From NCBI RefSeq assembly GCF_039536205.1, contig NZ_BAAAYL010000001.1, positions 5,332,001 through 5,396,000 on the forward strand: 64,000 nucleotides of DNA, in the 5' to 3' direction. The DNA comes from Streptomyces sannanensis. GTDB lineage: Bacteria; Actinomycetota; Actinomycetes; Streptomycetales; Streptomycetaceae. A program made the position numbers and the translations under genes. The notes under the pieces are model-generated. The model had not been told where the DNA came from. It saw only the letters and a list, made by a program, of their open reading frames with translations, and made no database searches. Of this stretch, positions 12,085-38,157 are shown one piece after another. Position 1 is the stretch's first letter. The number at the start of each line of letters is the position of its first letter.

Positions 12085-12094
12085 GCTGCTCCGC

Positions 12095-13036: not shown

Positions 13037-13069
13037 CCGGAGCCACCGGAATCCAGTGACGCGTCCGGA

Positions 13070-13256: not shown

Positions 13257-13277
13257 ACAGCGCACCCGTCCCGCCGA

Positions 13278-13745: not shown

Positions 13746-13822
13746 GAGCCGTTACCGTTTCGAGAAGCGCCGGCCGGGCGCGGGGACGGACCCGGCCCGG
13801 CCGACGGGAGGGAGGGGGAGGA

Positions 13823-14400: not shown

Positions 14401-14450
14401 GGACGGTGTACGGAGCCGTCGCGGTGCGGTGCGGAGGAAAGGGGCGGCGG

Positions 14451-15526: not shown

Positions 15527-15532
15527 GTGGCT

Positions 15533-15578
15533 GGTGTGCCGCCCGCTGCCGGGGTGCCGGAGAGGCGGGCGGCACACC
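15533..15578. terminator. Bidirectional hairpin terminator
   Basis: Perfect 14-bp arms GGTGTGCCGCCCGC and GCGGGCGGCACACC with an 18-nt loop lie between the convergent DUF397 gene and the minus-strand hypothetical gene. Confidence 0.8.
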
Positions 15579-15598
15579 GTTCGCGGTACCTGTGTGCC

Positions 15599-16108: not shown

Positions 16109-16139
16109 GTGGCGTTGGTTCCTTGGGTGCGGGTTGGCC

Positions 16140-16175
16140 ACCTCTGGGTGGCCGCAGGTGTGGCCACCCAGAGGT
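16140..16175. promoter_or_regulatory. Perfect inverted repeat upstream of the basic protein gene
   Basis: Arms ACCTCTGGGTGGCC and GGCCACCCAGAGGT (14 bp each, no mismatch) around GCAGGTGT lie ~32 bp before the GTG start. It could be an operator or the terminator of a lost rightward or leftward transcript. Confidence 0.45.
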
Positions 16176-16303
16176 CGGGTCAGCCGTGGCGGGGGCCGGG
16201 CCCCGGGGCCGCGCCACCGGGTCCATTTTCTGCCAGTGCGGAGCCAGCAGGGCGGCTGTGTCGTCCGGCGTGAGCGCGAGCGGGACCAGCGTCTCACGGA
16301 CCA

Positions 16304-16732
16304 GGGCGGCGGTTCTGCACGACGAACATCGAGGACCAGGCCAAGGAGTGGGCGGAGCGCCAGGCCCGGAACGCCGCGAAGAAGGGCGTCCGCGGCGAGG
16401 GCGCCCAGTCGGCGGTCGTCCACTTCCGCATCCCGAAGTCGGAGTTCGCCAAGTTCAAGGGCAAGGTCTACACGGAGGCGAACGAGGAGTGGGCCAAGGA
16501 GGTGGCCAAGTTCCGGGCCGACTCCAACCCGCCGAAGCTGCGGCAGAGCCGCCCCTACGTGGAGGGGCCGATGCTGATGAACAGCCGCTCGTACCCGCAC
16601 ACCAAGGGCGTGAAGCCGGTGTCGGGTGGTCACCAGATCTCCTTCCGCATGGTGAAGAAGTTCAGCGCCTGCTTCTGGGGGCGCTGGTTCGCCAAGTGGT
16701 TCATGGGGATCAACACCTGGAAGCTCTGGTGA
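16304..16732 (+). pseudogene. C-terminal remnant of a polymorphic-toxin-like protein (DUF3990/ART-like)
   Basis: An open stretch without a start codon encodes a GRFCTTNIEDQAKEWA entry, then HFRIPKSEFAKF, then VEGPMLMNSRS and GHQISF. This order resembles ADP-ribosyltransferase-like C-terminal toxin domains of secreted polymorphic toxins. The large N-terminal trafficking region is absent. A SUKH-type immunity gene survives 1.3 kb downstream, so this is likely the corpse of a contact-dependent toxin locus. The toxin family name is tentative. Confidence 0.5.
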
Positions 16733-17754: not shown

Positions 17755-17949
17755 AAGGGCTTCGAGACGGTTCAGGAACTGCGGTGTGACCTGCGGTGGA
17801 AGGCTGCTTGCGGGCTCGGGCTGCACGACATGGCCTTCGATCCGTCGCTGCTGGCGTACTTCCGCCGCCGCCTGGCCCGCTCGGTGCGGCCGAACCGTGT
17901 CTTCGAGGCGGTGCGCGAGGTAGTGAGAGGGCGGTACATGCTTCTTTGA
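17755..17949 (+). pseudogene. N-terminal fragment of an IS1182-family transposase
   Basis: One frame reads GFETVQELRCDLRWKAACGL, then AFDPSLLAYFRRRLARS and RVFEAVREVV. This is the N-terminal helical domain of IS1182-family (IS5-superfamily) transposases. No catalytic domain follows. It stops at 17947. Confidence 0.75.
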
Positions 17950-18038
17950 GCGGTTTTGTCGTCGTCATGTCCGCCTACACCGGACGGAGTATTGTTCGAG
18001 ACCGTCGTGGTCGAGAACTCCCCGGATTGGCAGGCGAC

Positions 18039-18581
18039 ATGCTGAGGGTCGAAGAGTTGGAGGCCGCGCTTCCTGCGATTACACGGTGGCGTGTGCCAGG
18101 TAGACGCTGCGTGGACTGGGCCGCCCTCGAGGCGGACCTCGGGACGGCGCTGCCCTCGGACTTCCGCTCTCTGGCGGAGGCATATCCGATCCTGGTCGTC
18201 GACGACTTCCTGACGGTGTCCGTTCCCCGGCCCGGCGCCGAGGCGTCATGGGCATCCGAGTCCAGGGAGGACGAGATCCTTCAGGATCTGTACGAGATGG
18301 GCGACACCGAGGGCTACGTTCCCTTCCCGCAGCCGGGAGGCCTGATCTGCTGGGCGGAGTCCAATTCGGGGGACTCCTTCTACTGGAGGACGAGCCCTGC
18401 GGACCCGGACGCATGGCCGGTGGTCGTCCGCACAGACAACGGCGAGTGGTCGGAGTTCCCGGTCGGTGCCGTCGAGTTCCTGGCGGGCGTGTACCGGCGG
18501 ACCCTCGATGTGTCCGGCATGCCCAGGGACTTCCCCGGCGATGACCCGAAGGTGTTGGGCCTGAGCGACCGCATCGACTGA
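18039..18581 (+). CDS. SUKH (SMI1/KNR4-like) immunity-type protein
   Basis: 180 residues with the SUKH layout: an N-terminal helix pair, W-AALEADLGTALPSDFRSL, a VDDFLTV strand and a later LICWAESNSGDSFYW segment with the family's conserved W and G-D-x-F. SUKH proteins neutralise toxin domains of polymorphic toxins. A degenerate toxin C terminus lies upstream, so this may be an orphaned immunity gene. Confidence 0.72.
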   Translation: MLRVEELEAALPAITRWRVPGRRCVDWAALEADLGTALPSDFRSLAEAYPILVVDDFLTVSVPRPGAEASWASESREDEILQDLYEMGDTEGYVPFPQPGGLICWAESNSGDSFYWRTSPADPDAWPVVVRTDNGEWSEFPVGAVEFLAGVYRRTLDVSGMPRDFPGDDPKVLGLSDRID

Positions 18582-20109: not shown

Positions 20110-21866
20110 CTTCGCACATGACCGGTTCGGATGAACTGACGATGTGACCGGTACCTCTGTGGGGTGCCGGTCGTTGAGTGGGACGTGCCGATATCTCGTT
20201 CGCGTCGCTCACGGGTCCACCGTCCTCGGATGACGGTGGAGTTCGCTCCCGTGGTGGAGAGGCGTCTGGGCGCTCTGCCCGCCTCTGCCGAGTTTCTGCG
20301 CCGGCTGGATGTGGCCGGGATCATCGACGCGCTGTGCCCGGTCCGCCAGGTCGCGCACCTGACCCACGGGCAAGTGATTGAAGTCCTGATCGCCAACCGG
20401 CTGTCCTCGCCGACGGCCATGGTCCGGGTGGAGGACTGGGCGCGGAAGTGGGCGGTGGAGGAGGTCTTCGGTATCGATCCCGAGCTGCTGAACGACGACC
20501 GGCTCGCCCGCGCCTTGGACGCGATCGCCCCGCACCTGGACGAGATCACCGGCTCGGTCGGTGCCCAGGCCATCGCGGAGTTCGGCATCGACGTCAGCCA
20601 GATCCACTGGGACATGACCTCGATGTCGCTCTTCGGCGCGTTCGAGGACCAGGAGGACGGGTTCCCGCAGGTCAAGTACGGTCACCCCAAGGACCGGCGG
20701 GTGGATCTGAAGCAGGTCCAGGCCGGGCTCGCCGTCGCCCGCGACGGCGGGATCCCGGTCTTTCATCGCGTCTACGACGGCGGCGCCGGGGAGGTCGCCC
20801 AGGTCGTCGGCGCGATGAAGGCCCTGCGGAAGATCGCCGACCGCAAGGACTTCCTGCTCGTCGCGGACTCCAAGCTGGTGTCCTATCCGAACATCACCGC
20901 GCTGCTGGACGCGGAAGTCGACTTCATCGCCCCGCTCCCGGCCGCCCAGGTCAAGGCGGAGGTCTACGCCGCCCTGGACGTGGAATCCGCCCGGCCGGTC
21001 GACTACGTCAACGACCGGGACCACGAGCGGGACACCCCCCGCCGACCAGCGCGACTCCTACCGGGTCCTGGAGGACGTCCACGTCATGGCCGGGCCCCGC
21101 AAACGCGACCCGGTGCATCGGCTGCGCCGGATCCTGGTCCACTCCACCGGCAACGCCCGCGGGCAGCAGGCCGCCCGCGCCAAACGCCTGGCCCGGGCCG
21201 CGGAAGACCTCGACAAACTCCAACGCTTGGCCGGCGGCCGCTACTACAACACCGCGGAGAAGATCCAGGCCAGGATCGGCGTGATCGCCAAGACCCGCCG
21301 GGTCTCCGACTGCCTGCGCACCACCGTGACCACCGGCCCCGACCAACGCCCACGTCTGGAATGGCACTTCGACAAGGACATCCTGGACGCCCAGTCCGCC
21401 GCCGACGGCTGGTACGCCCTGGTCACCCGGCTCACCCCCCAGCAGGCCGACGCCGCCGAGGTCTTCAAGCGCTACAAAGGCCAAAGTGTGGTCGAGCGGC
21501 GCTACCACGACTTCAAGGGCCCCCTGGCCGTCGCGCCCGTCTTCCTGGAACACAACCGACGCATCGCCGCCCTGATCACCGTGATCTGCCTGGCCCTGCT
21601 CGTGTTCTGCCTGATCGAGCGCCAGGTCCGCCAGGCCCTCGGCCCCGAGCAGACCATGAACGGCCTCTACCCCGACAACCGCAAGGTCCGCCCCACCGGC
21701 CGCATGATCTTCTACCAGCTCGACAGCCTCATGCTCCGGCCCGCCACCGCCACCAGCCCGCCCACCATCCTCATCAGCCGAGGAGTCGAAGCACACCTGC
21801 TCGAACTCCTCGGCATCGATGAAACCCGACCTCGCTGGCTACAGACCTAAACCCCCATGTGCGAAG
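20110..21866 (+). mobile_element. IS4/IS1634-like insertion sequence
   Basis: About 1.76 kb bounded by 11-bp inverted repeats: CTTCGCACATG at 20110 and CATGTGCGAAG ending at 21866. It contains one transposase gene broken by a frameshift. No clear target duplication flanks it. Confidence 0.75.
20164..21850 (+). pseudogene. IS1634-like DDE transposase, frameshifted
   Basis: The first frame (GTG 20164 or ATG 20230) encodes the N-terminal half with the catalytic Asp in IHWDMTS and a second Asp in LLVADSKLVS. At a run of six C near 21035 the frame changes, and the second half continues from there to 21850 with the catalytic Glu region VVERRYHDFKG. Skipping one nucleotide at the C run would restore a ~560-residue protein, so this is either a mutation or a slippage-prone site. 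Confidence 0.8.
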
Positions 21867-21877
21867 TCTCCGGCTAG

Positions 21878-23321
21878 TAGGGCTTTGTTAGGTGGGTTCG
21901 TTGGTCCTCTTGGGCTACGGTGTGATGTTCTGTCAGGTGTGACACCTGAGGAGATGGATGTGGTCCGCCCGCGTCTGGAGGCGTTTGCGGCGGAGATGTT
22001 CGGTTCGCTCAAGCGCCGGGATCAGCGGGCCAAGGGCGAACTGTACATGCGCGGGCTGATGCTGGACGGCAAGCGCAAGTCGATGCAGCCGATGGCCGAG
22101 CGCCTGGGCGTGGACCACCAGCAGCTCCAGCAGTTCGTGTCGTCCTCGACCTGGGACTACGCCGAGGTCCGCCGTCGGGTGGCCCGATGGGCCGCAGCGC
22201 ACATCGCCCCGGAGGCGTACGCGATCGACGATGTGGGCTTTCCCAAGGACGGCTACGACTCGCCGGGGGTGGCCCGGATGTACTGCGGCGCCCTGGGCAA
22301 GCGGGGCAACTGCCAGATCGGCGTCAGCGTCAACCTGGTGTCCGACCGCGCGTCGGCGGCGGTCAACTGGCGGCTGTTCCTTCCCGAGAGCTGGGACGAC
22401 GCCAAGAACAGCGGGGATGCGCTGCTGGCGGAGGCGGTCAGACGCCGGCGCACGAGAGCGGGCATCCCCGACCAGGTCCGGCACCGGGAGAGGTGGCGCC
22501 TGGCCCTGGACATGCTCGACGAGGCCCGCGAAGAGTGGGAGCTGCCCGGTCTGCCGGTGGTCGCCGATGCCGGTTACGGGGATGCCACCGGCTTCCGTGA
22601 GGGCCTGACCGAGCGCGGCCTGGCCTACGCGGTGGCGGTCAAGGGCAGCACCACCTGCTACCCCGGTGATGCGTTCCCCGAGCGCCCGCCCTACAGCGGC
22701 ACCGGCCGCCCGCCCGGGCCGGCCTACCCCCAGCCGCACACCACCCTGCGGGCGCTGGCCCTGGCCACCGGACGCGGCGCCGCGCGGACCGTCACCTGGC
22801 GCCACGGCACCAAGACGACCAAGAACAACCCCCGTGCCGCCATGCGCTCACAGTTCCTGGCCCTGCGGGTCCGCCCGGCCAACCGCACCATCCGCCGCGC
22901 CACCGACGGCTCACTACCCGAGTGCTGGCTGCTGGCCGAATGGCCGCCCGACTCCGCCGAGCCCACCGACTACTGGCTGTCCACCCTGCCCGCCGACACC
23001 CCACTGCGCGAACTGGTCCGCATCGCGAAGATCCGCTGGCGCGTCGAGCACGACTACCGCGAACTCAAAGACGGCCTCGGACTGGACCACTTCGAAGGCC
23101 GCAGCTACCTCGGCTGGCACCGACACGTGACCCTCGCCTCCCTCGCCCAGGCCTTCTGCACCCTGCTGCGAATCGACCCAAAAGCCCCTGCGCCGGCCTG
23201 ACCCTCTACGCGGTACTCCGCGCGTTACAGAAACTCCTGGCCACCTGGACCGGCGCCTGCTCGATATGCGGCCAACCCGCCCCCACACCCAAACCCCACC
23301 ACAGAACCTAACAAAGCCCTA
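21878..23321 (+). mobile_element. IS701-like insertion sequence with CTAG target duplication
   Basis: Perfect 16-bp inverted repeats TAGGGCTTTGTTAGGT (21878-21893) and its complement (23306-23321) are bounded on both sides by CTAG (21874-21877, 23322-23325), matching the 4-bp target habit of the family. It lies 11 bp right of the IS1634-like element and directly against the MITE-like element. Confidence 0.88.
21939..23201 (+). CDS. IS701-family DDE transposase, C terminus lost by frameshift
   Basis: 420 residues from GTG 21939 (VTPEEMDVV). The catalytic set is visible: Asp in AIDDVGFPKDG, Asp in VVADAGYGD and Glu in HDYRELKDGLGLDHFEG. The frame stops after PKAPAPA at 23201. The next frame continues with LTLYAVLRALQKLLATWTGA and CSICGQP, the usual ending of this family, so one base has been lost near 23198. 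The catalytic core is intact, so residual activity is possible. Confidence 0.82.
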   Translation: MTPEEMDVVRPRLEAFAAEMFGSLKRRDQRAKGELYMRGLMLDGKRKSMQPMAERLGVDHQQLQQFVSSSTWDYAEVRRRVARWAAAHIAPEAYAIDDVGFPKDGYDSPGVARMYCGALGKRGNCQIGVSVNLVSDRASAAVNWRLFLPESWDDAKNSGDALLAEAVRRRRTRAGIPDQVRHRERWRLALDMLDEAREEWELPGLPVVADAGYGDATGFREGLTERGLAYAVAVKGSTTCYPGDAFPERPPYSGTGRPPGPAYPQPHTTLRALALATGRGAARTVTWRHGTKTTKNNPRAAMRSQFLALRVRPANRTIRRATDGSLPECWLLAEWPPDSAEPTDYWLSTLPADTPLRELVRIAKIRWRVEHDYRELKDGLGLDHFEGRSYLGWHRHVTLASLAQAFCTLLRIDPKAPAPA

Positions 23322-24788: not shown

Positions 24789-24804
24789 TCAGATATCCCG
24801 GAAG
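24789..24804. other. attL core of the island
   Basis: TCAGATATCCCGGAAG, identical to the last 16 bp of the murA-like gene at the other boundary. Identity ends abruptly on both sides. Confidence 0.7.
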
Positions 24805-24908
24805 AGACCAGCGGATGCGGTGACCTGTGGCGATATGCGGTCGCAGGCCGCTGACCTGCGCAAATGGCCTTTCGGAAGTTTCACGCTCGTATCCGTTGAT
24901 GCAGCCGG

Positions 24909-24941
24909 AAGTCCCAGAAAAGTCCGTCCCAGAGAAATCCC
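24909..24941. repeat. Left arm-type repeats of the integrase
   Basis: Degenerate tandem copies of AGTCCCAGA (AAGTCCCAGAAAAGTCC, then GTCCCAGAGAAATCCC), matching the threefold AAGTCCCAGAG array at 36528-36562 by the right boundary. They are likely integrase arm-binding sites. Confidence 0.6.
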
Positions 24942-24997
24942 ACTACCCGCAGCCACTTTTTCGGCTCCATGCAGGGCTTCGGGCGCGGTGTGGGCTG

Positions 24998-25417
24998 GTG
25001 TCTGTGCATCGGTGGTCCGCCCTGAACGAACTGCAACGCGCGCTTCTCGAACGGCTCGCGGCCGGTGAAGATCCCGCGGCCTGGGATCCGGGTGACTGGC
25101 GGTCGGCCTATGCTCCACGCAACCCTGGGCTTCTGAACGTCAGGCGCCGTGGCGGGGAGGTGTGTGCGGAGGTCACCGAGGCCGACCGCTTCTACTTTCG
25201 GCATGGCCGTCATCCCGACGGCCCGGCGTTTACAGGTAGTGGCGACCAGGCGGTATCCGCTGGCACTGCGCCTTCGGCGGCAGGCGCCGGGTGGCGCGGT
25301 TCCACAGGGCGGAGGCGCACTCCGATGCCTTACAGCGAACGGCCTGATGTCCGTGCGAGCTGCAGGCTGTCGCAGGAGCCGCACACCAAGGGAATTGCGC
25401 TCGCTTGCGGTCCGTGA
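24998..25417 (+). pseudogene. Hypothetical gene fragment in island left end
   Basis: From GTG 24998 the first ~75 codons read HRWSALNELQRALLERLAAG, then a DWRSAY and NVRRRGGEVCAEVTEADRFY segment, a small winged-helix-like module that I believe recurs in Streptomyces proteins. After ~25225 the sequence loses protein character. It is probably a truncated gene. The remaining ~180 bp up to the GHKL gene hold only its ribosome site. Confidence 0.4.
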
Positions 25418-25597
25418 CCTCGGCGAAGGCGATGAAGCAGCGTGCTTGAATGCGAGTGGAGCAGTGAGGGCGGCCGGGTACCTATGTGCCATGTGCAATT
25501 CACCAGAAATCATGCCCCCTGATTCGGTTGGATGGCACTGCCAGGAGGCTTCTGGCGGGCGCAGGCGCAGGCTGTGCACGAACGAGGGGGAACAGTC

Positions 25598-28500
25598 ATG
25601 ACATCGATGTGGAATGCCGCGGAGGGCGACGGGTTCCGGGCGGCCGTACGCGCCCTGACCCGGCGGCGAGTCGAGATCTACAGGGACGCCGGCGGGACAT
25701 GGCGGTTCGCCGAGAGCCTGAAGTCCGTCAGCGAGGACACCGCCCAGGAGTACGAGGGCCGCACGATCCTTGAACTCGTCCAGAACGGTCACGACGCGCT
25801 CGGTCAAGCCGCCCTGGGAAGGATCGCCGTCCTGGCGGTCACCAGGGAGGACGGCGGCGTCCTCTACGTCGCCAACGAGGGGGCGGTGTTCACCGAGGAG
25901 AACTTCCGCGCCATCACTGAGCTGGCCCTGTCGAGCAAGGCGGCGGGTGAGGGGATCGGCAACAAGGGCCTCGGTTTCCGCAGTGTGCTGCAACTGACGG
26001 ACTGGCCGGAGATCTACTCGAAGTCCTCACCCGACTCCCGGGTGTTCGACGGCTATTGCTTCCGCTTCGCCAGGCCCGAGGACGTGCGCGCCCTGGTGGA
26101 CGACCCGGCACTCGCGGCCCGGGTGATCGAGGACATCTCTCCGTTGGCACTACCGGTACCGGCCGACGTCACCGACCCCGTGCTCAAGGAACTCGCCGAG
26201 GATGGGTACTCCACGGTCGTACGGCTGCCGCTGCGCGACCGGCACGCCTGGGGACTCGCTGTGGCGCAGGCGGAGGACATGGTGAACGGCGAGGCGCCGC
26301 TCCTGCTCTTCCTCGACCGGGTGGCCGAACTCCTCGTCGAGGTGCGCGACGGCTCCGACACTGTTTTCCGGCAGGCCCTCTCGCGATCCGAGCGCACATC
26401 GGACCTGGTCACCGCAGGTGAGAACAACTCGGTACGGGAGATCGATCTTGCCGAGGCGGGCCGCTACCTGCTGGCGCGTCGCACTCTCGATCCCGAGGCC
26501 CTGAGCGGAGCGATCAGCCGCAGCGTCCAAGCGCGCGAGATCGACGCTGCCTGGGACAACTGGGACGCCGAGGCATGGGTGGCGGTCGCGCTGCGCCTCG
26601 ACGTGCCGCTCACCCACGGCCGCATGTATACCTTCCTGCCGATGGCCGAAGGTGTCCACGCCCCGTTCCCCGGCCACGCCCATGCTCCGTTCTTCACCAA
26701 ACTGGCCCGCCTCGACATCAGCGAGACGGTGGCCCTGAACGCCTTCCTTCTCGACCAGCTCGCCGTACTGACGGTGGAGCTGGGCAGGCGCATCCGCTCG
26801 CAGACCCCGCACCTCCTCGCCGCGGACCTCGTTCTCGACCTCATGTGTTGGGACGTACCCGACCGGCTGAACGCCGCCCTGGGCGGGAAGCTCGCCGCCG
26901 AACCGATCGTGCCCCTGCACGGCCGGGAGGCGTGGGGCTCGCTGCAGGGCTCCTACGGATGGCGGCCCGACGGCAAGCGCTCCTGGCGTGTCCTCACCAC
27001 CGCGGCACTCACGGAGGCCGGGGCCGACCTGCTGACCCCGTCCGTCGGCCCGGTCCGCCACACGCGTCTGGACAAGCTGTGCAGAGCCGTCCTCTCCAGG
27101 CCCTTCCGTCCGCCGGCGCGGCTGGCCGCCGAGTGGGCCGAGACCGTGGCCCAGTCACTGATCGGCTGTACGGAACCGGCAGGACAGGTATGGGCGGACT
27201 TCTACAGCGACCTGTCCCATGCGTTCGCCCGGGACCAGGGGGTGCTGCGGGGCCGGCGCATCATCCTCACCCAGGACATGCGGCTGAGAAGCGCCCTCGG
27301 CAGCCGGGCCGGGTCCGGCAGGCAGGACGCGACCGTCTTCTTCCATCCCGAGCCCGACGACATCGCGGACGGTGACGCGGCCACCCGGGTCCCGGGTGAT
27401 CTCAAGGCGCTCCGGCGCCGCATCTCCTTCACCCACCCGGCGATCTCCTGGGACGTAGCCGGACGGGGATTTCTCGAGCGCAACGAACTGGTGCGCCCCT
27501 ATCAACTGGACCGCGTCTTCGACGCGCTGAACGACCTGCTCTCCGACCGCCCTTCGGAGGCACTCAGCCGCGACGCGCTCACCTTCGCCTTCCGGCAGTA
27601 CCCACTGCTCACTCAGTCGCAGCGTCGACGGCTGGCCCGCATCCCCTTCCGGCTGCCGCTGGCCGACTCCGGCCGGTGGGGCAGAGCCGCACGCTGTTCC
27701 TTCTCGCCGGCTTGGGGCACAGAGGGAGCGCAGCGGCTGGAGCGGTTCCTCACCGAGGGTGGATCCCGGATCCCCGCCCTGGCCGCTCAGCGCGACCAGT
27801 GGATCAGCGGCCCCGACGACTGGCCCGCGCAGATCCGGGACCGGGTGGCCTACACCGAGTTCCTGGAGGCCCTCGGCGTGTGCGATGGCCTGAGGCCGGG
27901 AGCCGTCGGAGAACGCCTCGGGGCCTGCCAAGGCTACGAGTTGCGGCCCTCGGGCCTCGCCGTACGCCTCGGACTGGAGGACGCTCTCGCCAATGCCTGG
28001 GCCGCCGACGTCAGGAGCGGGTGGACCAAGTTCGCACACCCGTACACGCCATACGAGTTCACGAAGGCGCCGGCCCACCTGGCGGGAGCGACCGAGGTCG
28101 CCGGGCTCGGCTCCGCCGCCCGGCGCGAGTTCGCCGAACTGCTGATGCACGGGCTCCGCACCTGGGGCGAGGAGGTTCTCACCGTCACGGTGCACAGGCC
28201 CACGTACCCTTTCAAGGACGCGCACGTCTGGCCCACTCCGCTGGCCTCCTACCTCCGAAGCCTGGCTTGGCTTCCCGTGGAGGACCCGGACGGCCCCTCC
28301 TTCGTCGAACCCCGTCGGGCTTGGTTCAGCACCGACGGCGAACTGCCGGCCTTCATCCCCGCGTTGCCCCTGTCAGCGCGGCGCCTGCTCACCGACAGGG
28401 GCGTCGTCGAGCGGATGCTCCGGCTCGGCCTTCGTAGGTGGGACGATCCGCAGCACGCCGGGGCGGCGGTGAAACAGCTGGCTGATGTGCTCGACGAAGG

Positions 28501-30907
28501 CGACGTGCCCGAGTACCTCAGTGTCTCCTTCAAACGGCACTACAAACAGGCGTGGTCTCACATCGCTCGGACGGGCCGGTGGCCCTGGGCACCGGGTGAG
28601 GAGGCCCGTCTTGTGGTCAGCCGCACCAATGTGCTCGGCACCTTCACCCCGTCGGCCGACGAAGCACCTGTCATCGTCTGCGACGAGGCGGATCCCCTGA
28701 AGGAAGCGCTCATCGAGCCGGCGGGGCATCCCCTCCTCGTCGCTCCGGAGGAGTCCGGTGACGCCGTCGTCCGTCTGGCCGAGGCGAACGGGCTGCGGGC
28801 GCAGCGCACGTCGGCCACCCACGTGCAGGTGCGTCATCGCGACGGCGCCCCCATCACGCCGTCGGGACAGGTGGCGCCGTTCACCAGAGGACGGGAGTGG
28901 CTGGTCACCGTGGTCGCGCTCGCCATGGAACTCAAGTCCGGGGCGTTCGTGCGCCGCAGCGAGCGCGGTGTCCGTGCAGCGCTCGAACGGCTCCGCGCCC
29001 TCCGCGTCGTACACGCCGACGACGTGGAGATCACCATCTCCGGGACGCCGGCCGAACCGCCGTCGTCGACGCGTGCCCTGCCGCTACCGGACGACGAGCA
29101 CCCCACGGTAGTCGTCTGGAGGAGCGACGAGGGCTGGGACGAGCTTCAGGCGGCGACGCCCGCCGTCGCACAGCTGCTGGGCAGGCCATGGCTGCAGGAC
29201 GCGCTGGAACTGGTCCTGGTCAAACTCGAGCGGAGCTTCGGCGGCAGTAGCCCGACACTTGTCGACGACAGCGTCCTCGCCGCGGCACTGGACACGACCG
29301 AGGCCAAGGTCGCCGAGATCCGGCGCAACCTCACCGGTGATGTGCAGGACACAGTGAGACTGCTCCGCCCGGTACTGGCCTGCCTGGCTGCCGACGTCTG
29401 GAACGAGGAGGCCGCCCACCTCCTCGGCCGTGCGGCCGGCGAGCGCGAACTCGCCGGGGTCCTCGACCGGCTCGCGCCCGGCCTGCCACTGCCGTCGGCG
29501 GAGCTGGTGGCCCTGGCCCGCTCCTGCACGAAGCCGGCAGAGCTCAGGGACGAACTGGGGCTCGACTTCCAGCAGTTCAACGCCGCACTGGCCACTCTCG
29601 GCCCCGGATACTCCCCGGACTACTACCCCGACCGCCACGAACAGGTCTTCGGCGACTTCGTGCGCGCCCGCTCCGGAATCCTCTTCGACCGGCTCCGCGA
29701 GCGGTACGCCGTTGCGGCGCAGCAGGGCGAGGACATCTCTGGCTACGCCGCGGCCCGCGGTCTCCACGACCTCCGGCCGGACCCGGATTGGCTTCCCCGC
29801 TTCATCACCCCGCCCGAGGAGGCGATGCGCGACAGGGTGCGGGAATGGCTCCGGGCACATGGAGCCGACGGCGACCTCGAACGGCCCACCGAACTCGAGC
29901 CCGTCGACCGGCTCCGCGCACGCAACACGGCCGCACTCGACGCCCTCGTCCCGATACTGCCCCCCCTGGTAACCGCCTGGTGCCGCCGTCACGGCGTCCA
30001 GGTGCCCGCGGGATGGCACGGAGCGGTGCTGATGGAATGCAGGAGCCACATCGACGGGACCGGGCTGGGCGACCTGCTGCCGCTGAGCGAGAAGCACCTG
30101 CTCGACGCGGTGGAACGCGCCGTGGGATGGCCTGACGGAATGCCGCACGCCACGGACCCTGCGGCACTGGGCCTCACCGCCAAGGACTTCGCGCAGGCGG
30201 CGGCACTGACCCAGGGCTCCGGCGGCTCCACCACCGTCGCCCCGCGCACGATCATTATCGGGGACGCCGAGGTCAGAGTCGGAAGCGACCAGCTCTCCAC
30301 CATCGCGGACATCGCCTCGAAGACCATCGACGAGGCGTTCCTCGCCCAGTCGGGCAGAGTACGCCTGGACACCGTGACCGGTGTACCCCGGCCACGAAGC
30401 GGAGGCGGGCCCTCTCCCAAGCCGCGCATCATCGTCGCGAAGATGAAACGGACCAACGAGGACCAGCGGTCCGCCATCGGCCTCGTCGGGGAGGTGGCCG
30501 CACGTGCCTGGCTCCAGCGCCACTACCCCGACGTGCGGTGGACCTCGGGCTACGCGGCCGTCGTCAACGGCGACGACGAGGCGTCCGACTCCCTGGGCTA
30601 CGACTTCGAGGTCACCTGGCGTGACACCACCCGGTTGTACGAGGTGAAGGCGCTGAGCGACCCGTGCGCCGAGCGGGTGGAGTTCGAACTCGGACCGTCC
30701 GAGGTGGACGCGGCCCGCCGCCATGCCCGGAGCAACCGCTACCGCATCCTGCTGATCACCTCGGCCCTCGTCCCGGAGGAACGCCGCGTCTTCGACCTGC
30801 CTAACCCGTTCTCGGCCCAAGGGCGTGACCGCTTCAGGATGGTCAGCCGGGGTGTGCGCTACCAGTGCTCGCCCCTGGGAAAGGAGCGGCCCTCCGACTC
30901 GCACTGA
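25598..30907 (+). CDS. Giant sacsin-like GHKL ATPase with C-terminal DUF3883 nuclease-like domain
   Basis: 1,769 residues. The N terminus carries a GHKL/Hsp90-type ATP site: Glu59, Asn63 and Asp66 in ELVQNGHDAL, NEG at 93-95 and GEGIGNKGLGF at 117-127. A ~1,450-residue helical middle without obvious motifs follows. At about residues 1624-1730 is a DUF3883 domain of the PD-(D/E)XK fold, with GLVGEVAARAWL, LGYDFEVTW and YEVKAL supplying the D...ExK residues. The start at 25598 follows GAGGGGGA. Such ATPase/nuclease giants are typical of bacterial defence islands. This one is intact while its neighbours are broken. Confidence 0.85.
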   Translation: MTSMWNAAEGDGFRAAVRALTRRRVEIYRDAGGTWRFAESLKSVSEDTAQEYEGRTILELVQNGHDALGQAALGRIAVLAVTREDGGVLYVANEGAVFTEENFRAITELALSSKAAGEGIGNKGLGFRSVLQLTDWPEIYSKSSPDSRVFDGYCFRFARPEDVRALVDDPALAARVIEDISPLALPVPADVTDPVLKELAEDGYSTVVRLPLRDRHAWGLAVAQAEDMVNGEAPLLLFLDRVAELLVEVRDGSDTVFRQALSRSERTSDLVTAGENNSVREIDLAEAGRYLLARRTLDPEALSGAISRSVQAREIDAAWDNWDAEAWVAVALRLDVPLTHGRMYTFLPMAEGVHAPFPGHAHAPFFTKLARLDISETVALNAFLLDQLAVLTVELGRRIRSQTPHLLAADLVLDLMCWDVPDRLNAALGGKLAAEPIVPLHGREAWGSLQGSYGWRPDGKRSWRVLTTAALTEAGADLLTPSVGPVRHTRLDKLCRAVLSRPFRPPARLAAEWAETVAQSLIGCTEPAGQVWADFYSDLSHAFARDQGVLRGRRIILTQDMRLRSALGSRAGSGRQDATVFFHPEPDDIADGDAATRVPGDLKALRRRISFTHPAISWDVAGRGFLERNELVRPYQLDRVFDALNDLLSDRPSEALSRDALTFAFRQYPLLTQSQRRRLARIPFRLPLADSGRWGRAARCSFSPAWGTEGAQRLERFLTEGGSRIPALAAQRDQWISGPDDWPAQIRDRVAYTEFLEALGVCDGLRPGAVGERLGACQGYELRPSGLAVRLGLEDALANAWAADVRSGWTKFAHPYTPYEFTKAPAHLAGATEVAGLGSAARREFAELLMHGLRTWGEEVLTVTVHRPTYPFKDAHVWPTPLASYLRSLAWLPVEDPDGPSFVEPRRAWFSTDGELPAFIPALPLSARRLLTDRGVVERMLRLGLRRWDDPQHAGAAVKQLADVLDEGDVPEYLSVSFKRHYKQAWSHIARTGRWPWAPGEEARLVVSRTNVLGTFTPSADEAPVIVCDEADPLKEALIEPAGHPLLVAPEESGDAVVRLAEANGLRAQRTSATHVQVRHRDGAPITPSGQVAPFTRGREWLVTVVALAMELKSGAFVRRSERGVRAALERLRALRVVHADDVEITISGTPAEPPSSTRALPLPDDEHPTVVVWRSDEGWDELQAATPAVAQLLGRPWLQDALELVLVKLERSFGGSSPTLVDDSVLAAALDTTEAKVAEIRRNLTGDVQDTVRLLRPVLACLAADVWNEEAAHLLGRAAGERELAGVLDRLAPGLPLPSAELVALARSCTKPAELRDELGLDFQQFNAALATLGPGYSPDYYPDRHEQVFGDFVRARSGILFDRLRERYAVAAQQGEDISGYAAARGLHDLRPDPDWLPRFITPPEEAMRDRVREWLRAHGADGDLERPTELEPVDRLRARNTAALDALVPILPPLVTAWCRRHGVQVPAGWHGAVLMECRSHIDGTGLGDLLPLSEKHLLDAVERAVGWPDGMPHATDPAALGLTAKDFAQAAALTQGSGGSTTVAPRTIIIGDAEVRVGSDQLSTIADIASKTIDEAFLAQSGRVRLDTVTGVPRPRSGGGPSPKPRIIVAKMKRTNEDQRSAIGLVGEVAARAWLQRHYPDVRWTSGYAAVVNGDDEASDSLGYDFEVTWRDTTRLYEVKALSDPCAERVEFELGPSEVDAARRHARSNRYRILLITSALVPEERRVFDLPNPFSAQGRDRFRMVSRGVRYQCSPLGKERPSDSH

Positions 30908-31175
30908 TGGAGTGGCCTAAGCCGTGATGGTGGTGCGCAGTCCTGTGCACCAGGAGGAGGGGAGCCGCTCGGGTACTTCTCGATGAGTTTCCCAGGTGAC
31001 CTGCCAGCACCTGCTGTGTGGCGGGCGGAAGCAGACCCCGCGTTTGAAGGTCCCGGTCGCGACGTCACCGTTGCGTGGCCGGCCTCGCGAGAAGCCGCGC
31101 TGTCAGTCCATGGCGGTAGGCTCCACCAGGGATTTGTCGGATCCTGAGGGACGCAGCGGTGAGAAGGCGAGCGCA

Positions 31176-33798
31176 GTGGCAGCAACGGGAGGGGACCCGC
31201 GGCGGACACCCGGTCCGGCCGTGCCCAAGCCGGGACCGGTCCAGCCCGCCCAGCAGTGGTTCCAGGAGCGTCCCTCTCCCTACTCCTGGGAGCAGGACGC
31301 GCTGGACCACGGTCCTGCAGCTGGAGTACGCGGGTGAGCAGTCCCTTGGCGCCCGGCTGCGCGGCAAGGGACAGCTCAGCTATGACGAACTGGAACGCTT
31401 CGGCGAGGACCTGTTCCTCGCCCTCGACCAGCTCGCCGCGCACGGCGTCCGGCACCGCGACATCAAGCCGGACAACCTCGGCATCCAGCGCCGCAAGGAC
31501 TTCACCTGGCAGCTCAAGCTGTTCGACTTCTTGCTAACGGACGCCTCCGACCGTGACGTGAAGGCCGGCACCCGCGGCTATCTCGACCCGTTCCTCGGGT
31601 CCGTGCGCCGCCCGCACTTCGACGACCACGCCGAACGCTACGCCGCGGCCGTCACCCTGCACGAGATGGCGAGCGGCGAGCGGCCGCTGTGGGGAGACGG
31701 CCGCATCGACCCGCTCACCAACGAGTCCGCCGAGCTGTACATCGCCAGTGAGCTGTTCTACCGGCCCCTGCAGTCCGGCCTGACCGCCTTCTTCCGGCGC
31801 GCTCTGCACCGGGATATCGAGCACCGCTTCGACACGCTGCGGCAGATGAAGGACGCCTGGCAGAAGGTGTTCCGGGACGCCGACACGGACCGGCCGCCGA
31901 CCACCCCCTCCACGGTGGGCACCGAGGCGGAGGACACCGAGCAGGCACGGGACCGGGCGGCGCTGGCCGCCGACGCCCACACGGAGCTGGAACTGGCAGG
32001 CCTGTCGCCGCGTGCGGTGACGGTCGCCGCCGGCCTCGGCGCCACCACGGTGGGTCAGCTGCTGGACGTCCAGCCCTCCATGATCTCCAAGGCCCGTGGC
32101 GCTGGCCCGCTGGTGCGCAAGGAGCCGAACCGCCGCCGCAACCAGTGGGTGGCCGCCCTGCGGGGCAGGGCCGCCGTACCGGCCGCGCGCAAGGCCGCTG
32201 CTCCGGCCAAGGACGACGAAGCGCAGGCCGGGGTCACCGGCATCCTGTCGGTCGACGGCATGGTCGACCTGCTGACCCCGCCGTCCGGCCGCAAGGGCTC
32301 GCACCGCGCCGACGTGGTACGCCTCACCCTCGGACTGCCGCCCGAGGACGGCGGCCTGTCCCCGCTCGGCCCCTGGCCCGTGCAGGCGCGGATAGCCGAT
32401 TACCTGGGTATCAAGCAGCCGCCGGTCTCCCGCCACCACCGGGCCGAGATCAAGCGGTGGGCCGAGGTCGAGTGGCTGCAGACGGTGTGCACGGAACTGG
32501 TCGAGATCGTCGCCACCTTCGGCCGCGTGATGACCGCCTCGCAGGCCGCGCAGGAACTGCGTGCCCTGCACGGCGCGCAGGACGACACCCCCGAGCGCGT
32601 GCTGGCCCGGTCACTGGCGGTCGTCCGGGCCGCCGTCGAGGCGGAGACCCGTGAGGAGGAGGGACACGAACCACGCCTCGCGACGACCTGAACCCCCGCG
32701 AACTGGCCGACTACGCGGCGGAGCTGGGCACGACCGCAGAGAAACTCGCCGGCCGGGAGCCCCTTCCGGGACGCGCCGAGGTGGTGCGGGAGCTGCGCGC
32801 GGTGCCCGTCCCGGAGGGCTTCGCGCCGCTCGCCGACACCCGTCTGGTGCAACTGGCCGCCGCCGTGGCGTCGTCCGTGGTGCGCCACACCCCGCGCCTC
32901 GAGCTGTACCGGCGTGACCTGAGCCTGGAACGCGCGCTGCGCATCTCGCAGGCCGGCGCGGGCGTGCGACCGGACCGGGGGATCACCGCGACCGAACTCG
33001 TCGCCCGGGTAGGAGCCCGTTTCCCCGACCTGAATGTCCTGTCGGACGGCCGGGAGCCGACCCCCGTGGTGCTGGAGGACGCACTCCAGGCGGCCCGCTT
33101 CGACCTGCGGCACGACGACGAGGCCGGACGTTTCCTCCCTCCGCTGCTGAAGTCCACCGGTCCCTGGTCCTCCACGGGCTCGGTCACCAGCATGCTGCCT
33201 CCGGCCCGGTCCGTGGTGCGCCGCGAGCCCGAGGACCCGCACGGTGAGCTGCGCGAGCAGCTCGCCGAAAGCGTCCGCCGCGGAGGCTTCCTCGCCCTGA
33301 CGGTCAAAGCCGCCCGTCTGCAGGGCACGGCAGAGATGATCGCCGCCCGCTTCCCGGTGGTGCCCGTCGACCTCGGGGCGCTGTTCCTGCGGGAGTTCAG
33401 GCGGCTCGTCGAGGAGAAGGGTCAGGACTGGCGGACGGTCCTGCGTGCCGACGCGGCCTCCGCGCCGGGCAGGGTGAAGCCGGGCCTCGCCACGTTCGTC
33501 CGCGTTGTGTGGCAGCGGGTCGCCGACGACCTCGCCGCCTGCTCCACCGAGCCGCGCACGGTGCTCTTCCTCCACGACGCGGGTCTGATCGCCCGGTACT
33601 GGGACGAGGGCGGGCGTGCGTTCCTGGTCACCCTCCAGGCAGCAGCCCGCCGGCCGTCGGAGGGGCCGCACGGCCTGTGGCTCCTGTGCCCGATGGAATC
33701 CAGCATCCAGGACCCGCGACGGACGGACGGTCCAGGCACTGCGCAATGACGGAGAGGTGGCCTACCTGGCCGGAGGGTTCCTCAAACAGCCCGCGTAG
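31176..33798 (+). pseudogene. Remnant of a pglW-like serine/threonine kinase gene (BREX type 2/Pgl)
   Basis: The first ~45 codons from GTG 31176 (WFQERPSPYSWEQDALDH) look like the start of PglW. Then the frame changes, and the sequence jumps at ~31308 into a kinase C lobe (HRDIKPDNLG at ~31460), losing the NERD-type region and kinase N lobe. The kinase frame stops at 32691. The C-terminal region continues in a second frame to 33749 (ending in a PHGLWLLCPMESS segment) and a third to 33798 (GRTVQALRNDGEVAYLAGGF). One deletion and at least two frameshifts make it nonfunctional. The 268 bp before it show nothing clear. Confidence 0.65.
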
Positions 33799-35259
33799 AT
33801 GGCGAGAAGAGGCACGCCTGTCAGAAGGACCAGCAAGAATACGGCCATGGTGGCGATCATCAAGTGCCGTGACAACGAGGACGAGTACCTGGAGTTCCTT
33901 GAGGACTTGCATCAATCCCGGCGGTACGAATGGGAGTGGTCGTTCACGCGCCGGCGTGACCTGTGGTCCAAGGGCCGTCACCTGCTCCTGATCGCCTCCA
34001 TGGACGCTAACGGGCGCTTCGAGGTCACCCGCGTGGGGAAGTCCGTCCGCCGACGCGGAGCCAGGGACCAGGATCAGCAACTGCGCGTCACTCATGTGCG
34101 CCGACTGCGCAGGCCCCTTCCGCTCGCCGAGCTACTCGACGGACTGACCGCGGCTCAGCGGCGCCATCTGGTCGAGGAGGGTCACCAGAGCAAGGGGACG
34201 GGCGAGGCGATACGCGTCCTGCTGCTGGGGCTCCGGCCGGAGCTGACGGAAGCGGTCCAGCTGATCGAGGGGGCCATCGAGTCCTGGGACTTCGGCGACT
34301 CGCGGGCGGCACAGGAAGTGGCACTGCAGCGCGATGCGACCCTGGCCGTCGCACGCATGGCCGGGATGCAGGCTTCACAGCTGGCGGAGTGGGACCCGCC
34401 TGCGGAGGAACTGTACGACGACACGGTGCCCCCGCTGTTCCTCGACATGGTGGGCGCAGCCCGCCACCCGGACGAGCTGCTTGACGCGCCGGAGCCGCGT
34501 CCGCAGGACCCTTCCGCCCGTTCCGGCAGGATGAGTGATCAGCCGGCACTCGAGGACCATCTCGTCATGCACGACACCCGTGCGATGCACGGATGGCTCA
34601 GCGACGAGACCAACCATGTGGCCTGGCGCAGGTTCCAGGAACACGACCGTACGCTGTTGGTTGCGAACGCCAACCGCACCCTGGCGGAGCAGGCCCTCGG
34701 TTGCGACATCATCTTCTACAACGTCACGCGCCACAGCCTCGTCCTCGTGCAGTACAAGAAGCTCGACGCCGAGCGAGGCGGTTTCTACTACCCGAACAGC
34801 GACCGGAACCTCGCCAAGGAACTGAAACGGATGAGGAGCCTGGACCGGTACGCGGAGATGCAGGCCAGTCTGGCCGACGAGCAGCGGTTGGACCCGAGTC
34901 CGAGCTGGATCAAGCTCTGCCATCCGCGTTCCGTACTGCCCCACACGACGGAGATGATCCACGGCATGTACTTCTCCCGTCGGCAGTTCGAATCGCTGCG
35001 CGACGACGCCCGGCTGAAGGACGGACGAGGCGGTGCCCTCCGGTTCGGCTACAAGAACGTCCCGGCCTACCTGGACAACACGCTGTTTACGCGCCTGGTC
35101 GAGACGGGCCAGATCGGCACCACCGGCACAAGCACTGACCTCGTCCGCCAGCAGGTCATCCGCAGCTTCCGTGGGCAGCGCAACCTCGTGCTCGCCACGC
35201 TGAGCGGGGAGGAGCCGCCGCAGGCGGCGCGGAACGCGCAGCGCCGACAGACACGCTGA
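33799..35259 (+). CDS. Unrecognised island protein with PD-(D/E)XK nuclease-like motif
   Basis: 486 residues from ATG 33799, which abuts the stop of the kinase relic; ATG 33847 is an alternative. The N-terminal ~230 residues are of unknown type. At about residues 290-340, EQALGCDIIFYN followed by LVLVQYKKL gives a D...QxK arrangement as in PD-(D/E)XK nucleases, then YYPNSDRNLAKELKRM. I do not recognise a family. Its intact frame beside broken genes and its place in the island suggest a selected, possibly defensive, function. Confidence 0.7.
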   Translation: MARRGTPVRRTSKNTAMVAIIKCRDNEDEYLEFLEDLHQSRRYEWEWSFTRRRDLWSKGRHLLLIASMDANGRFEVTRVGKSVRRRGARDQDQQLRVTHVRRLRRPLPLAELLDGLTAAQRRHLVEEGHQSKGTGEAIRVLLLGLRPELTEAVQLIEGAIESWDFGDSRAAQEVALQRDATLAVARMAGMQASQLAEWDPPAEELYDDTVPPLFLDMVGAARHPDELLDAPEPRPQDPSARSGRMSDQPALEDHLVMHDTRAMHGWLSDETNHVAWRRFQEHDRTLLVANANRTLAEQALGCDIIFYNVTRHSLVLVQYKKLDAERGGFYYPNSDRNLAKELKRMRSLDRYAEMQASLADEQRLDPSPSWIKLCHPRSVLPHTTEMIHGMYFSRRQFESLRDDARLKDGRGGALRFGYKNVPAYLDNTLFTRLVETGQIGTTGTSTDLVRQQVIRSFRGQRNLVLATLSGEEPPQAARNAQRRQTR

Positions 35260-35293
35260 GCGAAGGGCCCTCCGGAAGCGGCTGCGGCTCCAC

Positions 35294-35478
35294 TCAGACG
35301 GGCATCCGGGGGACGCCGCCCCGACGACTGATGTCGAAGGCAAGGCGGTAGATGTCCGGCAGGTCGACGGAGTCCGGGCCGCGCTTGGTCACCACGCCGA
35401 TATCGTAGAGTTCCTGGACGAGTACCGCTGGATCGTCGAGGTTCCGGGGACCGCTGCCGCCCTTCTCGCTCTCCAGCA
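35294..35478 (-). pseudogene. C-terminal fragment of an unidentified protein
   Basis: The minus strand reads LDDPAVLVQELYDIGVVTKR, then VDLPDIYRLAFDI and GGVPRMPV before the stop. The form (a winged-helix-like ending with a PDIYR motif) resembles the tail of P-loop NTPases found in actinomycete islands, but the rest is missing. It abuts the truncated integrase at ~35479, a deletion or recombination scar. Confidence 0.45.
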
Positions 35479-35479
35479 A

Positions 35480-36492
35480 TGGACTACGTCTTGGCCCATT
35501 GGTGGCCCACCCAGAGCGGTGACCCGTCCCCCTGGAGCGCATCGAACAGCGGGTACGTCGGCACATCGTCCCCCACCTCGGCGCGCTGCCGCTCAACAGC
35601 ATCGGAACGGAAGCGCTGCGGAGCTGGAAGAAGCGGTTGGAGAAGGACCTCGGTCCCACCTCCATCCGGCTCGTCTGGGCAACGCTGTCCGGCATCCTGC
35701 AGGCGGCCGTCGAAGACCGCCGGCTCGCACGCAACCCCTGCCGCGCCAGTACGGTTCGACCTCCGGCAGCCGCTCCCGGGCGGGTCGAAGTGTGGCCGCC
35801 AGAGCGAGTGCTTGCGGTGCGTGCCGCTCTGCCGGAGCGCTACCGAGTCCTCATCGAAATCGGTGCGGGACTCGGGCTCCGGCAAGGAGAGGCGTTCGGC
35901 CTGGCCAGGGAGGACATCGACTTCGATCAAGACGTCGTCCGGATCCGACGGCAGGTCAAGATGGTGCGGACGAAGCTGTGCTTCGCACTTCCCAAGGGGC
36001 GCAAGGTGCGTGACGTGCCCTTGCCTCCCAGCGTGGCCAAGGCCCTGTGGCGGCACATCGACCTCTTTGCGCCCCTGCCGATCACCATGCCGTGGGACGC
36101 CCCGAGCCCCCCGCAGACACCGGTGGAAGCCAAGCATTGCCGGCCGAGGACGTACAACCTCCTGGTGACCGGACGCGAGCGGAAGGCGACCAACCGGAAC
36201 TACTTCAACTCCTACGTCTGGAAGCCCGCTCTGGCCGGAGGCCGGCGTGATTGCCCCGCTGGAGGAGAGCGCTCCGGACGGAGCCCGCGTGTGGGAGCTC
36301 TCGCGAGAGCACGGCTACCACGCCCTGCGGCACTTCTACGCATCCGAGCAGTTGGAGGCCGGTGAGTCGGTCGTCTCCCTGGCTCGGTGGCTCGGCCACT
36401 CGGACCCCGGGTTCACGCTCCGGAAGTACGCCCACTTCCTGCCCCGCGCGGGCGCACGTGGCAGCGCCGCCATAGACGCCGTCTTCGGGTAG
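35480..36492 (+). pseudogene. Tyrosine recombinase (island integrase), frameshifted and 5'-truncated
   Basis: Three frames together give a phage-type integrase. The N-terminal SAM-like region begins LAHWWPTQSGD. A frameshift near 35530 leads into HIVPHLGALPLNSIGTEALR and the catalytic domain with the first Arg in GLRQGEAFGL. A second frameshift near 36235 leads into YHALRHFYAS (His, Arg), LGHSDPGFTL (His) and the KYAHF tyrosine. All catalytic residues are still encoded, but not in one frame. It lies at the right end of the island beside attR. Confidence 0.8.
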
Positions 36493-36527
36493 CTCCCAAG
36501 CAACTGGGAACAGCCCGGCCCCGGCCC

Positions 36528-36562
36528 AAAGTCCCAGAGAAGTCCCAGAGAAGTCCCAGAGG
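36528..36562. repeat. Right arm-type repeats of the integrase
   Basis: Three tandem copies of an 11-bp unit AAGTCCCAGAG between the integrase stop and attR. The same motif recurs inside attL at 24909. Confidence 0.65.
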
Positions 36563-36627: not shown

Positions 36628-36643
36628 TCAGATATCCCGGAAG
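36628..36643. other. attR core within the 3' end of the murA-like gene
   Basis: TCAGATATCCCGGAAG. The integration site keeps the gene's last codons and stop intact, as usual for elements that target gene ends. Confidence 0.7.
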
Positions 36644-38157
36644 GTCTCGATCCGCGCTCCCACCGTGTTGAGCCGCTCCGCCAGATCCTCGTAACCACGG
36701 TTGATGACATAGACGTTGCGCAGTACGGACGTACCCTCCGCCGCCATCATCGCCAGCAGCACCACCACGGCCGGGCGCAGTGCGGGCGGGCACATCATCT
36801 CGGCCGCGCGCCAGCGGGTCGGGCCCTCGACGAGTACGCGGTGCGGGTCGAGCAGCTGGAGGCGGCCGCCGAGGCGGTTGAGGTCCGTGAGATAGATCGC
36901 GCGGTTGTCGTACACCCAGTCGTGGATCAGGGTCTTGCCCTGGGCGACCGCCGCGATGGCCGCGAAGAACGGCACGTTGTCGATGTTCAGGCCGGGGAAC
37001 GGCATCGGGTGGATCTTGTCGATCGGGGCCTCCAGCTTGGACGGCCGGACCGTGAGATCCACCAGGCGGGTACGGCCGTTGTCGGCCGTGTACTCCGGGG
37101 AGCGGTCGTGGTCGAGGCCCATCTCCTCCAGTACCGCGAGCTCGATCTCGAGGAACTCGATCGGTACGCGGCGGATGGTCAGCTCCGACTCGGTGACCAC
37201 AGCGGCGGCGACCAGGCTCATCGCCTCGACCGGGTCCTCGGAGGGGGAGTAGTCGACGTCCATGTCGATGTTCGGTACGCCGTGCACGGTGAGCGTCGTC
37301 GTTCCGATGCCCTCGACGCGTACGCCCAGCGCCTCCAGGAAGAAGCACAGGTCCTGGACCATGTAGTTGGAGGAGGCGTTGCGGATGACGGTCACCCCGT
37401 CGTGCCGCGCGGCCGCGAGCAGCGCGTTCTCGGTCACCGTGTCACCGCGCTCGGTCAGGACGATCGCACGGTCGGGTGTGACGCTGCGGTCCACCCTCGC
37501 GTGGTACTGACCCTCCGTCGCGGTGATGTCCAGGCCGAACCGGCGCAGCGCGATCATGTGCGGCTCGATGGTGCGGGTGCCCAGATCGCAGCCGCCGGCG
37601 TACGGCAGCCTGAAGTGGTCCATCCGGTGCAGCAGCGGACCCAGGAACATGATGATGCTGCGGGTCCGCCGGGCCGCCTCCGCGTCGATGCCGTCCAGGT
37701 CGAGATCGGCCGGAGGGACGATCTCCAGATCGGTCCCGCCGTTGACCCAGCGGGTGCGCACGCCGATGGAGTTCAGCACCTCCAGGATGCGGAAGACCTC
37801 CTCGATCCGCGCCACCCGGCGCAGTACCGTGCGTCCCTTGTTGAGCAGTGAGCCGCAGAGCAGCGCCACGCATGCGTTCTTGCTCGTCTTGACGTCGATG
37901 GAGCCCGACAGTCGGCGTCGTCCGACCACCCGGAGATGCATGGGACCCGCATACCCGAGGGAGACGATCTCGCTGTCCAGTGCCTCACCGATCCGGGCGA
38001 TCATCTCAAGGCTGATGTTCTGGTTGCCTCGCTCGATCCGGTTCACCGCGCTCTGGCTGGTACCCAGGGCATCGGCGAGCTGAGTCTGTGTCCAGCCACG
38101 ATGCTGTCGTGCGTCACGGATGAGCTTGCCGATGCGTACGAGGTAGTCGTCGGTCAT
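36628..38157 (-). CDS. UDP-N-acetylglucosamine 1-carboxyvinyltransferase-like enzyme with N-terminal XRE domain
   Basis: 509 residues. An XRE helix-turn-helix occupies residues 8-62 (GWTQTQLADALGTSQSAVNR) and is fused to an EPSP-synthase-fold MurA domain. The catalytic Cys190 is in GGCDLGTRTIEPH and the substrate Lys/Asn pair in TSKNACV at 91-97. MurA starts peptidoglycan synthesis by adding enolpyruvate to UDP-GlcNAc. The fused DNA-binding domain suggests an enzyme that senses its substrate and regulates transcription, probably its own. The 3' end is the island's integration site. Confidence 0.85.
   Translation of the reverse strand: MTDDYLVRIGKLIRDARQHRGWTQTQLADALGTSQSAVNRIERGNQNISLEMIARIGEALDSEIVSLGYAGPMHLRVVGRRRLSGSIDVKTSKNACVALLCGSLLNKGRTVLRRVARIEEVFRILEVLNSIGVRTRWVNGGTDLEIVPPADLDLDGIDAEAARRTRSIIMFLGPLLHRMDHFRLPYAGGCDLGTRTIEPHMIALRRFGLDITATEGQYHARVDRSVTPDRAIVLTERGDTVTENALLAAARHDGVTVIRNASSNYMVQDLCFFLEALGVRVEGIGTTTLTVHGVPNIDMDVDYSPSEDPVEAMSLVAAAVVTESELTIRRVPIEFLEIELAVLEEMGLDHDRSPEYTADNGRTRLVDLTVRPSKLEAPIDKIHPMPFPGLNIDNVPFFAAIAAVAQGKTLIHDWVYDNRAIYLTDLNRLGGRLQLLDPHRVLVEGPTRWRAAEMMCPPALRPAVVVLLAMMAAEGTSVLRNVYVINRGYEDLAERLNTVGARIETFRDI

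Follow-up and report, generated by a model that had tools for sequence, protein, structure and literature searches.

Our analysis of a 64-kb window of a Streptomyces chromosome (G000:C1:5332001-5396000, G000 being the host genome) indicated that the gene at positions 25598 to 30907 (+) of this window, tmtA, most probably encodes a self-contained anti-phage protein of the Tiamat family, which we infer to be an ATP-gated clamp-nuclease, and that the pglW relic and the nuclease-like gene (33799-35259) found downstream are leftovers of a separate phage growth limitation (Pgl)/type-2 bacteriophage exclusion (BREX-2) module. We place the probability of this reading at about 0.72. Observed in its favour are the assignment to the family by profile model, two predicted active sites that are intact and almost invariant, the predicted folds and the separability of the gene from its neighbours. 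An earlier note on this DNA had proposed the gene as a candidate single-gene defence system; the one-gene system is well supported, but it is not new, and the window gene is a further member of an already catalogued one-gene anti-phage family (PADLOC TmtA).

Family assignment, reading frame and predicted domains of TmtA

Comparison with PADLOC revealed a nearly full-length match of the product to the TmtA model PDLC03971 (1,805 bits, residues 29-1780 aligned with profile positions 11-1779 of 1782), and six more PADLOC TmtA models matched the protein at weaker scores. Judged by these profiles, the product almost certainly belongs to the TmtA/Tiamat family, TmtA being the protein of the Tiamat system. 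The window gene also agrees with Tiamat (PDLC03971 and related models) in its GHKL N-terminus, in consisting of a single gene and in its chromosomal location, Tiamat being described in PMC10482375 as a defence system enriched in Actinobacteria and nearly always chromosomal there; no difference was found in this comparison, which was made with PADLOC models and not with an experimentally tested Tiamat sequence. The mechanism of Tiamat is given as unknown in PMC10482375 and PMC12926258, and one of our literature searches on this mechanism returned no paper containing the word TmtA.

The second TmtA model, PDLC03968, represents a large protein distinct from that of the window, found in 4 of 61 Streptomyces genomes at an E-value of 1e-200 (G012, G018, G019 and G028) and not in the host; it also matched L129 122-3892, beside a control stretch of genome G179 (L numbers denote fetched loci, in which genes were called by our own GC-based script). 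Because a control stretch held this match, the idea was raised that the PADLOC TmtA label merely marks a core Streptomyces gene, and it was dropped for PDLC03971 and PDLC03968, as PDLC03968 is patchy too. SspH, a Streptomyces HATPase regulator, was also rejected as a TmtA relative, since PMC9137472 describes a 142-residue single-domain protein that is not comparable.

The open frame extends from 25532 to 30907 (+) and counts 1,791 codons from its first ATG and 1,769 from the ATG at 25598. Since the protein-database entry for the window's product (P0074) has 1,769 residues and its 20 best relatives (P0075-P0094) have 1,741-1,763, 25598 is the likely start. Nonsynonymous (dN) and synonymous (dS) divergence from the copy of Streptomyces sp. 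NWU339 (L002) were 0.053 and 0.241 (pairwise counts only, as for all such figures here), and tmtA is therefore evolving as a protein under constraint. With the frame open, the length in agreement with P0074 and this constraint, the intact 1,769-residue gene described earlier is borne out. The statement that no other large gene of the island has escaped damage goes too far, for the nuclease-like gene 33799-35259 (486 codons) and a transposase gene at 21819-23201 also look intact, the latter matching DDE_5 over positions 1-271 of 272 (Pfam).

Residue numbers here follow the 1,791-codon frame and are reduced by 22 in the 1,769 numbering (E81 = E59, K1706 = K1684). A predicted GHKL ATPase with an S5-like transducer covers residues 52-427 (25685-26812, +), with the N box E81/N85/D88, the G1 motif N115-x-G117 and the lid K145-G146-x-G148-F149, and E59, singled out in the earlier note, is indeed the N-box glutamate. 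At the other end, residues 1642-1783 (30455-30880, +) form a predicted PD-(D/E)XK domain of the DUF3883/NOV_C type, with E1654, D1691 and E1704-x-K1706. We aligned 118 sequences, comprising 117 of the best 120 of 167 relatives plus P0001, which replaced the window's own entry P0074 (P0097 and P0130, of at most 1,650 residues, were left out). E81/N85/D88 were kept in 117 of the 118 and the C-terminal residues in all of them; both predicted active sites are intact and near-invariant.

The description of the N-terminus as a sacsin-type ATPase is supported, as both SACS PF25794 (Pfam; 41.5 bits, cut-off 32.8, one match only) and the sacsin-type ATP-binding model NF047352 (NCBIfam; 67.1, cut-off 50) scored above cut-off. 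A search of solved structures with TmtA returned four sacsin chains only (E-values 1e-4 to 2e-3). Structure models predicted an Hsp90/topoisomerase-VI-like ATPase with transducer at the N-terminus, the fold match reaching residue ~427, and a PD-(D/E)XK fold at the C-terminus. Because of this reach, the unknown middle, formerly put at ~1,450 residues, shrinks to ~1,200 (26813-30454, +); this putative sensor or arm was modelled as a confident alpha/beta scaffold and had no assigned fold, the middle not having been searched as separate domains. The DUF3883 label given earlier to the C-terminus needs qualification, for the window protein had no Pfam match to PF13020 (DUF3883/NOV_C) at an E-value of 0.1, but some homologues do, including the host's second tmtA copy (24.8 bits, cut-off 22.1), and fold and motif agree with it.

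Among known ATPases, sacsin shares with TmtA the PF25794 match and, as described in PMC9880540, the catalytic residues of N box and lid, but it has three Hsp90-like regions against the one SACS match of TmtA, which is bacterial and ends in a nuclease-type domain. Clamps of the MORC/SMCHD1 type share the modelled GHKL and transducer fold. With PD-(D/E)XK nucleases of PF13020 the predicted fold and the pattern E...D...(D/E)xK (118/118) are held in common, although the family model itself did not match. From the SPARDA effector chain and Hjc-type PD-(D/E)XK enzymes the TmtA domain differs in sequence (10-13% identity) and in being fused to a GHKL ATPase.

Distribution and neighbours of tmtA

Long TmtA matches were present in 29 of 392 Streptomyces genomes, 22 of them complete in one frame, and weak relatives, mainly of the GHKL part, in 386 of the 392 (listed frames mostly ~1,060-1,900 residues). 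The weak relative of the host lies at G000:C1:3075778-3076728, and the near-universal relative is possibly a core sacsin-like protein, not PDLC03968. The host also carries a second tmtA, ~30% identical, in two mirrored copies at the chromosome ends (G000:C1:134541-141504 and 7267849-7274812; L066, L008-L011). These are split at the same point, and the copy examined contains a ~1.68-kb insertion sequence with a DDE transposase (DDE_Tnp_1_4) and 16-bp inverted ends. Another relative (96% of the query, 27% identity) was detected at 11440-16599 of the unannotated 20.8-kb phage record MT835712.1 ('Bacteriophage sp.'), which could represent a prophage or a contig under a wrong name.

Forty tmtA loci with flanks were compared (the window, L001-L006, L046-L066, L069, L070 and L146-L155), 11 of them close (at least 50% identity) and 29 distant. 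No constant companion emerged from neighbour clustering over 30 of the loci, nor from testing 18 named neighbour proteins against all 40, where only matches of at least 150 bits counted (at least 200 when the query was PglW, a kinase, a helicase or BrxHI). In the 11 close loci we looked at a non-exhaustive set of neighbours, selected for size and interest, and recognised defence neighbours in six: BREX-2 genes or what is left of them in four (window, L002, L004 and L006), and a GmrSD-type protein with a kinase and a helicase in two (L001 and L005). The other five (L003, L046, L047, L146 and L147) had no recognisable defence neighbour once weak or generic PADLOC matches were set aside, namely a TAP-like match (L047), a helix-turn-helix (HTH) model on murA (L146), and mad2 and mad8 in L147 (mad2 at 58 bits on a protein that Pfam assigns as a tRNA methyltransferase; mad8 at 133 bits, a model that also matched a control); counting the mad8 match would raise the figure to 7/11. 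In the 29 distant loci, with flanks of ~5-9 kb, none of the tested PglW, PglX, PglZ, BrxD and BrxHI was found, and one held a GmrSD-type protein (L150).

The literature searched yielded no account of a tmtA lying within BREX-2, and the main text of a BREX survey (PMC12839542, 2026) contains no HATPase, GHKL, Hsp90, sacsin or DUF3883. In S. xantholiticus (L004 15521-25207), brxHI, brxD, an AbiU-model match (614 bits) and pglZ lie beside tmtA, the AbiU-like gene being interposed in the BREX-2 gene order. A caspase-nSTAND-WD40 protein (~1,587 residues) with a small EACC1-domain neighbour is encoded upstream of tmtA-pglW in both L002 (2222-6991) and L006 (4079-8839).

Separation of tmtA from the Pgl/BREX-2 remains

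Comparison of the window with the fetched loci by blastn revealed three arrangements. In G525 (L146), the tmtA block (91% identical) ends 2 bp from the block of the murA-like gene (36628-38157, -) that encodes an N-terminal HTH domain and forms the right flank of the island, and nothing of 30913-36562 lies between them. In G354 (L107), tmtA is absent, and the window's murA with the acn-side block that follows it adjoins Pgl remnants together with a relative of 33799-35259. Both genomes have the right flank in common with the window and not the left. In G016 (L102), 24789-25105 is followed immediately by 30900-31311; tmtA (~25106-30899) is thus missing, and pglW and its followers are intact. 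Since G016 still carries the final 8 nt of the tmtA frame and 24789-25105 also precedes tmtA in L001 and L005, deletion is the simpler reading there. The three arrangements indicate that tmtA and the Pgl module were lost or gained independently. The site flanked by murA-HTH, which in three genomes (window, L146 and L107) is occupied by tmtA, by Pgl remnants or by the two together, is likely a defence hotspot. Elsewhere in the window, 17796-18578 (+) gave a weak match to SUKH_6 (21 bits, below the cut-off of 27), a family that occurs in proteins conferring immunity to toxins.

The dead pglW relic noted earlier beside tmtA (31176-33716, +) is real. Relative to L006 and L102, it has kept N-terminal codons to ~31308, then lost 1,727 bp and, at ~32681, another 55 bp; either deletion breaks the frame. 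The remaining match begins at profile position ~584-587 of ~1,400 (PADLOC, NCBIfam), while Pkinase (Pfam) is matched from its position 73 onwards. Read against the PglW domain order given in PMC12839542, these match starts suggest that the relic has lost its NERD nuclease and its pseudokinase as well as the beginning of its active kinase. The two remaining parts differ from four close intact copies by dN 0.03-0.07 and dS 0.18-0.33; because this resembles the divergence of intact copies among themselves (dN 0.033-0.036, dS 0.27-0.28), the loss looks recent. Searching the window by tblastn (E-value 1e-20, 150 bits, 200 for BrxHI; PglY not queried) detected none of PglX, PglZ, BrxD and BrxHI. The pglW relic and the downstream nuclease-like gene derive from a type-2 BREX/Pgl locus from which the window differs in its broken pglW and in having no match to these four proteins, and tmtA is no core component of such a locus.

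The nuclease-like gene (33799-35259, +) is intact, and its homologues start at 33847. Across 49 homologues of its product E297, D303 and Q318 never vary, and at least 90% of them have K320, a pattern suggestive of a nuclease; a solved-structure search with the product gave no match at an E-value of 1. Relatives occur in 26 of the 392 genomes. Among 18 stretches fetched around such relatives, whole or partial pglW is present in six (L102, L103, L104, L107, L113 and L119), including all five in which the relative is at least 63% identical, and the other 12 (relatives at ~50% or less) gave no pglW match; tmtA is absent from all 18. The order in L102 is pglW, the relative, M28C, M28B and pglX, and the pglW of L107 is itself a relic. 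In the only loci where the gene was seen alongside tmtA (window and L002), pglW is there too, intact or as remains. Embedded PD-(D/E)XK effectors or auxiliary nucleases are described in BREX loci in PMC12839542. In line with these, the gene is most plausibly a Pgl-locus accessory, belonging with that locus and not with tmtA. The suggestion that tmtA works with this gene finds no support, as its close relatives accompany pglW (5/5) and none tmtA.

Weighing the readings and the proposed mechanism

A two-gene system of tmtA and 33799-35259 would account for both being intact in the window and present in L002, but with tmtA in none of the 18 stretches (six with pglW or a piece, 12 with neither), and with L006 and L146, whose tmtA is 87-91% identical, lacking any relative of 33799-35259, this pairing was rejected on genome distribution and locus content and is extremely improbable. 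Dependence on Pgl has more in its favour. As an auxiliary effector of Pgl/BREX-2, TmtA would need PglW for sensing and would now be stranded beside a dead pglW. In L002 and L006 tmtA immediately precedes an intact pglW, in L004 it neighbours brxHI/brxD/pglZ, auxiliary nucleases are known from BREX loci (PMC12839542), and full PglW occurs in five of six sampled close-tmtA genomes (G000, G142, G365, G387 and G130; not G295) against 88 of 392 overall, genomes that are few and related, in a pattern noticed post hoc, with PglW adjoining tmtA only in G142 and G130. As the host encodes full PglW at two other sites (5.76 and 5.92 Mb), each beside a pglX-type gene, an effect of PglW on tmtA in trans is conceivable. 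However, the tested Pgl/BREX-2 proteins are missing from the ~5-9-kb flanks of all 29 distant loci and also from L001, L003, L005, L046, L047, L146 and L147, and tmtA is found without pglW as pglW is without tmtA. Obligate dependence was rejected on the distant loci and the independent arrangements, and we consider the auxiliary-effector explanation improbable; tmtA beside pglW is best read as a defence-island association.

About equally improbable is a role outside defence, in housekeeping or DNA handling after the fashion of a chaperone or of MORC, to which the fold and sequence matches to Hsp90, sacsin, SMCHD1 and MORC3 and the weak relatives in nearly all genomes would point. Long matches are nevertheless patchy, broken and split copies occur, sites vary, the nuclease-type residues are invariant, and the match to a defence model is full-length. 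One result does weigh against a defence role: in ten loci (10 of 12 matched loci; eight distant, L046 and L047 close), two of 20 large neighbours (the two largest genes within 6 kb) matched PADLOC, compared with three of ten controls (largest gene only, 10 of 12 stretches), which indicates no enrichment of defence genes beside tmtA in the distant clade. This argues that the family as a whole has no constant defence-island setting, but it does not count against a system that acts alone. Whether homologues lie mostly outside defence contexts, which the earlier note had set as a refuting test, thus has a mixed answer, given the six close loci with defence neighbours. Its other suggestion, that the protein works alone, is supported, for tmtA has no constant companion and occurs without pglW and without 33799-35259, also beside murA in G525; it probably acts stand-alone.

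In the self-contained Tiamat reading, the sensing, coupling, DNA substrate and phage protection that we infer for TmtA would be arranged as follows. The ~1,200-residue middle would recognise invader-derived nucleic acid or a complex; the N-terminal GHKL ATPase and transducer would close around this target in the manner of Hsp90, topoisomerase VI or SMCHD1 clamps; and the closed clamp would license the C-terminal PD-(D/E)XK domain to cut DNA, either that of the phage or, less selectively, the cell's own (abortive infection). We advance this clamp-nuclease mechanism tentatively, at slightly less than even odds. A broader proposal, rather unlikely at present, is that Tiamat proteins are prokaryotic ATP-operated DNA clamps of SMCHD1/MORC or topoisomerase VI-B build with a nuclease of their own, in which a long sensor arm would trap DNA and closure would trigger the PD-(D/E)XK tail.

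As the TmtA family is already in defence databases, the discovery is modest. Natural variants with tmtA but no Pgl, and with Pgl but no tmtA, argue that the system is self-contained, so tmtA can be tested alone, and the invariant ATPase and nuclease-type residues, together with the modelled architecture, open direct tests of the Tiamat mechanism.
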